From Sporosarcina sp. NCCP-2716 (GTDB lineage: Bacteria > Bacillota > Bacilli > Bacillales_A > Planococcaceae), in NCBI RefSeq assembly GCF_023707985.1, contig NZ_BRCF01000001.1:617967-681966 (forward strand): 64,000 bases of DNA, in the 5' to 3' direction. The notes below the pieces were generated by a model. That model had not been told where the DNA came from and ran no database searches. It saw only the letters and a program-made list of their open reading frames with translations. A program made the translations under genes and the position numbers. Each line of letters starts with the position of its first letter. The first letter of the stretch is position 1. Below, piece after piece: positions 34,241-37,984 of the stretch.

Positions 34241-36034
34241 ATGTGCGGAATTGTAGGCTATAACGGAAAGAACCAGGCGGCGGAAATTTTGCTGGCCGGC
34301 TTGGAAAAACTTGAATACCGAGGATATGACTCGGCCGGCATGGCTTTCCAGACAGAGGACGGTTTAGTGCAATACAAAGAAAAAGGCCGGGTTGCAGATT
34401 TACGGAAGGCAGTGGATGGAAGTCTCGAGTCTTCTGTAGGGATCGGTCATACCCGCTGGGCGACCCATGGCGTGCCTGACCGGAAAAACTCGCATCCTCA
34501 TCAGAGCGCAACCGGCCGTTTTACGCTCGTTCATAACGGTGTCATCGAAAACTATGAGAAACTGAAAAACAGTTACTTGAAGGATGTTCCCTTTGCATCT
34601 GACACAGACACGGAAGTGATCGTGCAGCTCGTCGAGCATTTTGCTGAAGAAGGGCTGATGACAGGCGAAGCGTTCCGGAAAGCACTGTCCCTTCTGCACG
34701 GCTCCTATGCGATCGCCCTGCTTGACGAACAGGCACCAGAAATGATCTTTGTTGCGAAAAACCGGAGTCCTCTGCTCGTCGGAGTTAGTGAAGACTGCAA
34801 TGTTGTTGCTTCGGACGCAATGGCGATGCTGCAGGTGACCGATCAGTTCATCGAGCTGCATGACGGTGAAGTCGTCCTTCTCGGTCGTGGCGGGGTTACT
34901 ATTGAAACACTCGAAGGTGAGAAAATCGAGCGGGCACCCTATACAGCCGAACTCGACATGAGCGATATCGAGAAAGGGACCTACCCGCATTACATGCTGA
35001 AAGAGATCGACGAACAGCCGGGTGTGATCCGCAAAATCATGGAAGCCTACAGTACTGAAGACGGTACGCTTACCATTGAGCCGGCAATCCGCCAGGCGTT
35101 CCGACGTGCTGACCGTTTGTATATTATCGCGGCTGGAACGAGCTATCATGCCGGATTGGTCGGTAAGGAGTATATTGAAAAACTTGCAGGCCTTCCTGCT
35201 GAAGTGCATATTTCCAGCGAATTTGGCTACAATATGCCGTTGCTTTCGGAGAAGCCGTTGTTCCTGTTCATCACTCAATCCGGGGAGACGGCCGACAGCC
35301 GACAAGTGCTTGTGAAAGTAAAGGCGCTCGGCTATCCGGCGATTACGATGACGAACGTACCCGGTTCGACTCTTTCGCGCGAAGCGGACCATACGCTGCT
35401 GCTCCATGCAGGCCCGGAAATAGCAGTCGCCTCGACAAAAGCCTATACAGCCCAGCTCGCTGTACTTGCCATTTCCGCTTATTGCCTGGGTGACGGGGCT
35501 TGCGACTTCGATCTGAAACAGGAACTTGGGATTGCAGCGAATGCCATCGAAACCTTGACGGACGCCAAGCAGGAGATGGAGTCACTGGCTGCAGAACTGC
35601 TGGACAACAAACGAAATGCATTCTTCCTCGGTCGCGGACTCGATTATTACGTCAGTCTGGAAGGGGCTTTGAAACTGAAGGAAATTTCGTATATCCAGGC
35701 AGAAGGCTTTGCCGGCGGCGAACTGAAACACGGAACGATTGCACTGATCGAAGAAGGCACACCGGTCATCGCGCTTGCCACACAGCGAAACGTCAGCGCC
35801 AACTTGCGCGGCAATGTCAAGGAAGTGACCGCCCGCGGTGCGAACGCCTGCATCATCTCGATGGAAGGCGACAGCGAACCGGGTGACCGGCTCATCCTGC
35901 CGCACATCCACGACTTGCTGACGCCGCTCGCGGCTGTCATCCCGCTTCAGCTGCTCAGCTACTATGCTTCCCTGCAGCGCGGCTGTGACGTCGACAAGCC
36001 GAGGAACTTGGCGAAGAGCGTCACAGTTGAATAA
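34241..36034 (+). CDS. glmS: glutamine--fructose-6-phosphate aminotransferase (isomerizing)
   Basis: 597 residues. Converts fructose-6-phosphate and glutamine to glucosamine-6-phosphate, the entry to cell-wall amino sugars. Class II glutaminase domain with the N-terminal nucleophile Cys (MCGIVGYNG) and [11 protein letters not shown]; two SIS isomerase domains ([28 protein letters not shown] region [14 protein letters not shown]) and the C-terminal [11 protein letters not shown] tail. ATG at 34241 with GGAGGAA at 34229-34235. Controlled by the ribozyme upstream. Confidence 0.96.
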
Positions 36035-36198: not shown

Positions 36199-36684
36199 TT
36201 GGATAGATTCACGACCCTGGCGCTGCTCAGTATCGCGGGCATGGGATTGCTGTTTTACACAGTCGAGAAACTGTCCCGCAGGTGGCTTGGTGTCAAGAAA
36301 GGTGTATCGTTCGTCAGCCGTTCCGTCAATGACACCCACCGTAAGATCGACTGGACACTGCGGGCGCTGTTCATCTTCGGCCTCTTGTTCGGAGGGATTG
36401 TTTTTTCTGCAGTCCGATATGATTCCACGGCCTGGTTTTATATTTTCCTCGGCTATATAGTCACCACGAACTTCATACTCGAACTGATACGGGCCTTTTT
36501 CCAGAAGAAATACGGCGACGAGAAGAATGAATACAAGGTGACGCTGATCCAGCTCTGCATGCTCTTGCTGTTCGCAATTGTGATTCTCTCCACAGAGTTT
36601 TTCGGACTGATCCCGTTGGATGGTTCCCGAGATCAGGCTGCCGGTTACGTGGTAAGCTGGCAATTTGAAACTGAAAGTGACTGA
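36199..36684 (+). CDS. four-span membrane protein (DUF4181-like)
   Basis: 161 residues if started at the TTG at 36199 with AAAGGAAG at 36182-36189; a much longer in-frame ORF begins at 36097 but lacks a ribosome site. Four hydrophobic stretches with a charged loop between spans 1 and 2 (RKIDWTLRALFIFGLLFGG starts span 2) resemble the DUF4181 family of Bacillales. Function unknown. Monocistronic. Confidence 0.7.
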   Translation: MDRFTTLALLSIAGMGLLFYTVEKLSRRWLGVKKGVSFVSRSVNDTHRKIDWTLRALFIFGLLFGGIVFSAVRYDSTAWFYIFLGYIVTTNFILELIRAFFQKKYGDEKNEYKVTLIQLCMLLLFAIVILSTEFFGLIPLDGSRDQAAGYVVSWQFETESD

Positions 36685-36710
36685 TGAATCGGAAAAAATG
36701 AAACAATTTA

Positions 36711-36739
36711 TTGACTTTCAGCGCGGCACCGTTTACGAT
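36711..36739 (+). promoter_or_regulatory. promoter of the leader-peptide/rsgA-paralogue transcript
   Basis: TTGACT (36711-36716), 17-bp spacer, TACGAT (36734-36739). Confidence 0.7.
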
Positions 36740-36771
36740 AGACCTAACTTATTGGAAAGCAGGTGATCACT

Positions 36772-36837
36772 ATGGCGACATTCAACTTGCAAATTGTTAA
36801 ATGGTTCGGTCCCATACTTTCACCTGCAGTGCGTTGA
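36772..36837 (+). CDS. 21-residue leader peptide before the RsgA paralogue
   Basis: ATG at 36772 follows AGGTGATC (36761-36768), an eight-base match to the 16S 3' end. The product, MATFNLQIVKWFGPILSPAVR is 21 residues written as MATFNLQIVKWF plus GPILSPAVR; it is hydrophobic with Trp and two Pro near the end. It sits between a good promoter and a strong terminator (36870-36907), the usual place for a regulatory uORF. No separate function is claimed. Confidence 0.6.
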   Translation: MATFNLQIVKWFGPILSPAVR

Positions 36838-36907
36838 AATCTGGCACGTTTCTTCTGTTATGTGCGTGAAAGCATGGCGTCCGAGCCCTCGGATTGCATG
36901 CTTTTTT
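36829..36907 (+). terminator. leader terminator with alternative pairings
   Basis: Terminator stem AAGCATG-gcg-TCCGA (36870-36884) with TCGGA-ttg-CATGCTT (36889-36903), then U4. Upstream segments GTGC (36829-36832, last codons of the leader ORF), GCACGT (36844-36849) and ATGTGC (36860-36865) can pair 1:2 or 2:3, and CTTTCAC (36817-36823) matches GTGAAAG (36866-36872) at the foot of the terminator. Confidence 0.65.
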
Positions 36908-36934
36908 ACTTGCCCAAAAACAGGAGGAATCGAA

Positions 36935-37984
36935 TTGAATAGTTTACAAATGTATGGTTGGAACAATAGGCACGAAACAGATTGGGAGGAGTTGGACGGC
37001 AGGCAATGGCGGCCTGGCCGGGTCACTTCGGAACACCGTAACATGTACACCGTAATTACGGAAGACGGGGAATGGCTCTCGGTCTGTTCTGGTGCCATGC
37101 TGCACGGAGCTGATGACAGGCGGCATTACCCGGCGGTCGGCGACTGGGTGGCGGTCGAAAAGATGCCGGGTGAAGAGCGCGGCATAATCCATTGCATTCT
37201 GCCCCGAACTTCTATCTTCTCCCGTAAAGCAGCCGGGGAATCCGGCGGTGAGCAGCTGATTGCCGTTAACGTGGACCTCGTCTTTCTTGTGACCTCGATG
37301 AATGACGATTTCAACATCCGCAGGCTCGAACGGTATCTCGTTGCAGCCTACGAGTCGGGGGCTGTTCCGGTTGTTGTACTGACGAAATCGGATCTTTGCG
37401 AAGATCCCGCGCAGTACGCAGCTGAGGCAGCGGGCGTAGCGGCAGGAGCTGATATTCTTATCGTAAGCAGCCGCACAGGTGCCGGAATCGACCGTCTGCA
37501 CAGTTTGCTGCAAGGCGGCAAGACCGCTGCGCTGCTCGGTTCATCCGGTGTCGGAAAGTCTTCGCTCGTCAATGCGATTTGCGGAGACGGGACGATGGCT
37601 GTCCAGAACATCCGTGATGACGATTCGAAAGGACGCCACACGACGACCCACCGGGAGCTGATCGCGCTGCCCGGCGGCGGTGTCCTTATCGACACGCCGG
37701 GAATGCGGGAATTCCAGCTGTGGAATGAAAGGGAAAGTGTCGACTCAAGCTTCACGGACATCGCTTCCTTGGCGGAGACGTGCAAGTTCAGCGACTGCGG
37801 GCATATTCAGGAGCCCGGCTGTGCGGTCCGCCGGGCGATCGGTGACGGTACATTGGAAGAAAGCCGATTCGCCAGTTATTTGAAACTCCAGCGGGAAATC
37901 GCCTACTTGGACCGCAAATCGGATTCCCAAGCCCGGCTGGCTGAACGGAAACGCTGGAAAGCGCTGACGAAAGCGAAGCGCTGA
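36935..37984 (+). CDS. rsgA: RsgA-family circularly permuted ribosome GTPase (likely second copy)
   Basis: 349 residues from a TTG at 36935 with AGGAGG at 36922-36927. OB-fold N-terminus, then the permuted GTPase order G4 TKSD (150-153), SSRTGAG, G1 GSSGVGKS (202-209), G3 DTPG (253-256), and the zinc site Cys283, Cys288, His290, Cys296. RsgA checks maturation of the 30S subunit. It is longer than the housekeeping Bacillus RsgA (YloQ, about 298 residues) and lies outside the usual prpC-prkC-rsgA neighbourhood, so a paralogue is inferred. Expression appears to depend on read-through of the leader terminator. Confidence 0.88.
   Translation: MNSLQMYGWNNRHETDWEELDGRQWRPGRVTSEHRNMYTVITEDGEWLSVCSGAMLHGADDRRHYPAVGDWVAVEKMPGEERGIIHCILPRTSIFSRKAAGESGGEQLIAVNVDLVFLVTSMNDDFNIRRLERYLVAAYESGAVPVVVLTKSDLCEDPAQYAAEAAGVAAGADILIVSSRTGAGIDRLHSLLQGGKTAALLGSSGVGKSSLVNAICGDGTMAVQNIRDDDSKGRHTTTHRELIALPGGGVLIDTPGMREFQLWNERESVDSSFTDIASLAETCKFSDCGHIQEPGCAVRRAIGDGTLEESRFASYLKLQREIAYLDRKSDSQARLAERKRWKALTKAKR

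Follow-up and report, generated by a model that had tools for sequence, protein, structure and literature searches.

The rsgA2 gene of Sporosarcina sp. NCCP-2716, which encodes a second, non-housekeeping RsgA GTPase, is preceded by a leader that is likely to be an attenuator sensing the position of a ribosome on a short open reading frame (ORF). The genes controlled by attenuators like those of vmlR, hflXr, and erm serve to defend the ribosome, and an attenuator of this kind, placed before a second RsgA across many Bacilli genera, points to a GTPase for ribosome defense or repair. Together with the spare RsgA copy, the leader hints that Bacilli have an undescribed system of ribosome protection, one that antibiotics could possibly induce. 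Coordinates refer to the window, the whole 64,000-nt stretch of DNA analyzed here.

Structure of the rsgA2 leader

The leader ORF (36772–36837, + strand; ATG, 21 codons, and TGA; MATFNLQIVKWFGPILSPAVR) has its own Shine-Dalgarno (SD) sequence and lies 5' of rsgA2 (36935–37984, +), and an intrinsic terminator is located between the ORF and the gene. rsgA2 starts with TTG and encodes a circularly permuted GTPase of the RsgA family with 349 amino acids. The leader SD (AGGTGATC, 36761–36768), with eight bases that we take to be complementary to the 3' end of 16S rRNA, is contained in segment 1 (GCAGGTGA/AGGTGATC, 36759–36768, +). Segment 2 (36803–36827, +) lies inside the ORF and has two partners: positions 36803–36823 pair with the 5' arm of the terminator, forming the antiterminator (helix 2:3), while its 3' part (36820–36827) pairs with the leader SD in segment 1 (helix 1:2). 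By folding, helix 1:2 is able to include the leader start codon. The end of the ORF carries hairpin P2 (36826–36848, +), which comprises only approximately four pairs in the window and is longer and covarying in relatives. It is followed by an anti-SD strand (UUUCUUCUGUU, 36849–36859, +), which pairs with the rsgA2 SD region (AACAGGAGGAA, 36919–36929, +; AGGAGG at 36922–36927). Segment 3, the antiterminator strand (36866–36887, +), overlaps the 5' arm of the terminator (helix 3:4), which, together with its U run, spans 36869–36907 (+; −20.2 kcal/mol, z −3.3). The whole leader folds at −54.2 kcal/mol (z −4.0), and none of 200 shuffles equaled this value. The terminator was absent from the output of a simple terminator scanner over the 0.9 kb scanned, probably due to the internal loops in its stem.

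The original prediction named a 21-codon ORF with an eight-base anti-16S site, a strong terminator, and a downstream gene with its own ribosome site, all of which are present. It also named a good promoter. A promoter match is present at 36711–36739 (+; −35 TTGACT, 17-nt spacer, −10 TACGAT) with 9 of 12 consensus positions; on its own it is weak, with one such match found in the 0.9 kb scanned versus 0.6 in shuffles. Of 79 terminator-bearing leaders, 73 have TTGAC 15–85 nt 5' of the ATG of the leader ORF. An Rfam search of the whole window at gathering thresholds returned the glmS ribozyme as the sole match; this known element (RF00234, 33989–34159, +) lies directly 5' of glmS at 34241.

We examined how often such a layout occurs in a 464-kb sample of this genome, which held 422 script-predicted genes, of which 156 had 150 nt or more of upstream space. 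Three of the 156 genes were preceded by a short ORF with an SD and then by a terminator, and among these three, significant 2:3 pairing was found only before rsgA2 (p 0.005 versus 0.77 and 0.29). The combination of leader ORF, terminator, and pairing between the ORF and the downstream RNA was thus confined to one of the 156 genes, rsgA2.

RsgA2 is a second RsgA paralogue

NCBIfam and Pfam both assigned the window gene to the RsgA family, in agreement with the RsgA-type ribosome GTPase that had been proposed; the gene is not, however, the housekeeping rsgA. The other RsgA in the same genome is 35% identical to the window protein. In a tree with 30 proteins of the housekeeping type and 32 of the second type, a single branch with 100/100 support separated the two sets, a clean split that was helped by collecting one set with a housekeeping query and the other with the window query and in which several rows were long-branched. 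Judged by these sequences, rsgA2 is a second paralogue, distinct from housekeeping RsgA. The reading frame upstream of the housekeeping rsgA of this genome ends approximately 12 nt before the gene and is not a leader.

At E ≤ 1e-60, 187 of 398 Bacilli genomes, from 65 of 145 genera, had an RsgA2, which was mostly chromosomal in the genomes examined. Among 32 RsgA2 proteins, the G1 and G3 motifs were present in all, G4 in 29, HTT in 30, and the zinc site in 31, and the proteins have an N-terminal extension, often with a GWN motif. A structure model built with 17 sequences (mean pLDDT 77.5, pTM 0.67) aligned with 30S-bound RsgA over 312 columns (TM 0.61–0.67), and on this model RsgA2 has the RsgA fold. 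With the housekeeping RsgA/YjeQ/YloQ structures (PDB 5no2, 7boi, and 1t9h), RsgA2 shares the GTPase motifs, the zinc site, and, in the model, OB-like strands, at approximately 26–32% identity in structural alignments. RsgA2 differs from them by forming a separate clade, by its N-terminal extension, and by the absence of a match to Pfam RsgA_N (PF16745), which matched the housekeeping copy; the model nevertheless shows strands in this region.

Plasmids labelled as Stenotrophomonas rhizophila (H1 and H2) carry an RsgA2 that is 56.7% identical to the window protein, compared with 56.3% for that of a Lysinibacillus plasmid; this reflects either transfer or mislabelling. The rsgA2 stretch of Rummeliibacillus stabekisii has one in-frame stop.

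Conservation and covariation in the genus

An alignment of 32 Sporosarcina-type leaders was used to count covariation for helix 1:2, P2, and helix 2:3; the alignment was poor at 3:4. Helix 1:2 was paired in 95.3% of cells and P2 in 88.8%, with both sides changed in five of the seven P2 pairs. Taken together, 1:2 and P2 were paired in 92.3% of cells and had 23 double-changed cells versus 6.3 in shuffles, a count reached by none of 500 shuffles. Two of the five measures for these helices were weaker: the number of pairs with both sides changed was reached by 10 of 500 shuffles and the number of pair types by 96 of 500. Helix 2:3 was paired in 93.9% of cells, and both sides had changed in 6 of its 19 pairs versus 0.6 in shuffles; none of 500 shuffles matched its count of double-changed cells, and the 32 rows are related, so the shuffles overstate these differences. 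When the partners were slid by 1–3 columns, pairing fell to 28–45%, a comparison in which the structures, being drawn from one row, are favored over the slid versions.

A covariance model matched 38 of 61 genomes of the genus at E < 1e-8 (40 matches, with the leader in two pieces in two genomes), and the next match beyond these had an E value of 0.0017; the search used strict filters and scored 47 candidates per genome. The position relative to rsgA2 was checked in 15 of the 38 matched genomes. The leader was present in all 15 genus members with rsgA2, directly 5' of the gene in each, and the model at E < 0.1 found it in none of 12 members without rsgA2. Insertions 5' of the conserved core of the ORF measured 3, 6, and 9 bases, which keeps the frame. 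This pattern in the aligned sequences suggests that the leader ORF is probably read by ribosomes.

The ORF, the stems, and their order are thus conserved in relatives that keep the gene, and the alternative pairing of segments 1:2 or 2:3 in the original prediction was borne out by folding of the window and by covariation in the 32 leaders. What relatives do not share is the peptide: the position and frame of the ORF are kept and the stems covary while the residues change, and we refer to a leader ORF rather than the leader peptide first proposed.

Could the leader be non-functional, a leftover terminator beside a chance ORF? The promoter match, near chance when taken alone, would fit such a reading. 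However, it is contradicted by the covariation, by the co-occurrence of gene and leader, and by the genome and shuffle controls, and we regard it as hardly credible.

Several rsgA2 leaders contain repeat-like inserts of tens to several hundred bases that leave the flanking pairing arms intact. They are located in the P2 loop in L012 and L042 and between the terminator and the SD in L013, L014, L043, L049, L058, and L062. The L012 record, titled Arthrobacter beigongshangensis, has the same rsgA2 leader as genus member G140 (L042) and is probably mislabelled.

Leaders in other genera

After the removal of 13 duplicates and 32 loci that failed the leader rule, 147 loci yielded 102 distinct leaders. 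Pairing between the ORF and the downstream RNA (2:3) exceeded shuffles at p ≤ 0.05 in 84 of the 102 leaders and at p ≤ 0.01 in 73; helix 1:2 alone beat shuffles in 46, and hiding of the SD in 45. Since many of these leaders are close relatives, the count by genus is fairer. Significant 2:3 pairing was found in 28 of the 61 genera sampled and not, by the rule, in 33, misses that include limits of the rule; genus labels were assigned by hand, and the count becomes 27 of 60 if Macrococcoides and one f9 genus are the same. The rule misses some leaders: among the 32 failing loci, a leader was visible by reading in L012, L042, L049, L058, and L062, and a leader ORF with a terminator was also present in L093, L096, L098, and L105. 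The remaining failing loci may truly be without a leader.

Between genera, the sequence and the peptide change completely, while the layout and the pairings persist. This bears on a further explanation, namely an amino-acid starvation attenuator of the trp type or a ligand riboswitch, which would share the plan of 1:2, 2:3, and 3:4 helices or the high degree of structure. A complete change of primary sequence with persisting pairings is unlike an aptamer, no Rfam match was found in 36600–37000 up to E 5, and repeated or shared control codons were not seen in the listed leaders. We consider both forms of this explanation very improbable.

A terminator was present in 79 of the 102 leaders. The 23 leaders without one include L086–L089 (family f22, with Brevibacillus marinus), in which, by eye, the ORF and the RNA that follows could compete for the SD of the gene. 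An early stall raised equilibrium SD access in 10 of the 23 and lowered it in 7, and equilibrium folding revealed no clear switch in this group. A translational form of the switch in terminator-less leaders is offered as a suggestion.

Listeria monocytogenes (L150) has a short SD-led ORF (MAIVKMENLIINTGVFYL) just 5' of an rsgA2-like gene and one segment able to pair with either the ORF or the SD of the gene, a possible translational version of the leader. Similar short ORFs with competing pairings occur in Listeria and in Peptoclostridium (L181). We rejected both as support for the switch: in their minimum-energy folds, the 2:3 hairpin persists whether a ribosome is present or not.

Predicted operation of the switch

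We propose that in a leader without a ribosome, segments 1 and 2 would pair, the terminator 3:4 would form, and transcription would stop. A normally moving ribosome would cover segment 2, and the terminator would again form. A ribosome held at the start codon or within approximately the first six codons would instead mask segment 1 and leave segment 2 free; segment 2 would then capture segment 3, the terminator would be blocked, and rsgA2 would be transcribed. In transcripts that leak through, a further helix (36849–36859 with 36919–36929) would hide the rsgA2 SD.

The effect of a ribosome was modelled by equilibrium folding of the exposed RNA, with the footprint edge placed 16 nt 3' of the first P-site base, a toeprint distance also seen for vmlR (PMC9226507). 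Without a ribosome, the probability of the terminator in the window was 0.99. With the P-site at codons 1–6, the antiterminator reached 0.90–1.00, and with the P-site at codons 7–21, the terminator returned to 0.98 or more. This OFF/ON/OFF order was found in 49 of the 79 terminator-bearing leaders (15 of 26 terminator-bearing genera), with a median last ON codon of 6, and arose in 13 of 790 trials with shuffled ORFs. These results support the plan of ribosome-mediated attenuation that had been put forward. The order was not seen at equilibrium in 30 of the 79 leaders, and the terminator was mostly absent even without a ribosome in nine leaders, including the close relatives L004, L005, L009, and L011.

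Two features of the folding point to kinetics. In a ribosome-free transcript ending at 36891, 2:3 was favored at equilibrium (0.97); therefore, the OFF state relies on 1:2 forming first, before segment 3. Furthermore, the helix that hides the rsgA2 SD had a probability of 0.97 without a ribosome, and in the full readthrough RNA, the SD-hiding fold was approximately 5 kcal/mol better than the antiterminator (−47.0 versus −41.8). At equilibrium, an early stall left the rsgA2 SD of the window hidden. Since the SD-hiding fold is better and is not opened by an early stall, expression relies on a kinetically trapped antiterminator. This predicted helix is an addition to the original prediction and may act as a second lock on transcripts that leak through, a role also proposed for vmlR (PMC9226507). 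We judge that the predicted switch very probably works in cells.

Ribosome position and the nascent peptide

In 22 near pairs of leaders, codons 2–10 showed 14 synonymous and 46 nonsynonymous changes. The observed synonymous share was 0.233, and a crude neutral model gives 0.251; amino-acid selection was not detectable at these codons. Therefore, the leader seems to sense the position of the ribosome, not the peptide, and the product of the leader ORF seems not to matter.

An alternative is a leader that works by nascent-peptide arrest, as in erm, hflXr, or tnaC, where one particular peptide stalls the ribosome together with a particular drug or metabolite. Some constancy in the ORF is in line with this: the length is 18–26 codons in 87 of the 102 leaders (the search rule allowed 9–34), the C-terminal residues IGPILSPA are conserved in the Sporosarcina type, and the second codon specifies Ala in 43 of the 102 leaders versus 10 of the 129 ATG genes in the sample of this genome. 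However, the conserved C-terminal codons form part of the RNA helices, and a ribosome stalled on them would cover segment 2, so that the gene would stay off. The peptides are wholly different between genera, the RLR motif of hflXr was found in one of the 102 leaders (L073), and codons 2–10, as described above, carry no detectable selection. Peptide arrest thus appears improbable. Ala at codon 2 could suit stalling by phenicols or oxazolidinones; it may hint at these drugs or may reflect only helix 1:2.

Under position sensing, any agent that holds ribosomes at the start or within the first six codons, whatever the peptide, would be expected from the model to induce rsgA2. We lean towards an antibiotic, or another agent that blocks initiation or early elongation, as the usual inducer. 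vmlR is induced by lincomycin and retapamulin, both of which stall ribosomes at initiation (PMC9226507). Set against a drug signal, a proteome study reports that chloramphenicol lowers, and does not raise, housekeeping RsgA in Enterococcus faecium, and the loss of housekeeping RsgA in Staphylococcus aureus is cited as raising resistance (PMC12441150). For the second copy, the drop in E. faecium is neither helpful nor decisive. A sensor of position and not peptide could be used as a general reporter for arrest early in translation.

Possible function of RsgA2

Two roles are conceivable for RsgA2: protecting or resetting small subunits blocked by a drug, or acting as a back-up for 30S maturation in cases of failed assembly. 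By analogy with HflXr and Tet(M) and their targets, RsgA2 could clear or protect small subunits under stress, a reading to which we give slightly less than even weight. More tentatively, RsgA2 might be the small-subunit counterpart of these proteins: a GTPase induced by stress and spread through Bacilli, with the task of freeing or resetting 30S or initiation complexes that a drug has blocked. Its leaders might constitute a family of sensors that respond, independently of the peptide, to ribosomes stuck within the first six codons.

The back-up role belongs to a rival explanation in which the same switch responds not to drugs but to small subunits that are defective or slow (through assembly faults, cold, or low magnesium) and RsgA2 is a reserve 30S maturation factor. 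RsgA is a 30S maturation factor, the loss of which leaves unprocessed 17S rRNA (PMC9032327), and ribosome assembly defects constitutively induce the vmlR leader (PMC9226507); the lack of a conserved drug-specific peptide motif also fits. Nevertheless, the leader would need an initiated, waiting ribosome; if active 30S were simply scarce, 1:2 would stay paired and the gene would remain off. Furthermore, housekeeping RsgA was present in 30 of the 31 Bacilli genomes examined, and a back-up is not obviously needed. We regard this explanation as unlikely, but worth keeping in view. Since vmlR is also induced by assembly defects, induction alone cannot separate the protective from the back-up role. 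The rsgA2 system offers a ready test of roles of RsgA-type GTPases besides maturation.

Comparison with known systems

The genes of the tet(M) type for ribosomal protection resemble rsgA2 in encoding a GTPase that is paralogous to a housekeeping factor and acts near the decoding site, and in being under leader attenuation. They differ in belonging to the EF-G family and in being mobile resistance genes, whereas RsgA2 is mostly chromosomal.

In the open-licence PMC literature, the matches listed contained nothing on a leader or attenuator of rsgA, nothing on a second RsgA, and nothing on drug induction combined with protection for rsgA. In PMC6912228, PMC8579695, and PMC10502375, the matched words were unrelated to a leader of rsgA.

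The closest likeness in wiring is the vmlR leader of Bacillus subtilis. This leader (PMC9226507) shares a short ORF inside an anti-antiterminator, an antiterminator, an intrinsic terminator, and a helix that hides the SD; variants of its ORF with other residues still work, and drugs that stall ribosomes during initiation induce it. With three codons, the vmlR ORF is shorter than the 21-codon ORF of the rsgA2 leader, which is long enough for a moving ribosome to cover segment 2 by itself. vmlR encodes an ABC-F ATPase directed against large-subunit drugs, whereas the rsgA2 product is an RsgA-family GTPase.

The choice of gene is closest to hflXr (lmo0762) of Listeria monocytogenes, with its leader rli80, which is likewise a second copy of a housekeeping ribosome GTPase under short-ORF transcription attenuation (PMC6310831). 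The uORFC-6-1 motif before hflX, from a survey of bacterial RNAs (PMC8632094), offers the same likeness. However, HflX splits 70S ribosomes and hflX leaders carry an RLR motif, while rsgA2 leaders have no conserved peptide; rsgA had no occurrence in the main texts of these two papers. The rsgA2 leader is wired as in vmlR and, as with hflXr, it controls a second copy of a ribosome GTPase. The logic of the switch is known; new here are a longer ORF read by position and a widespread target that acts, by family, on the small subunit.
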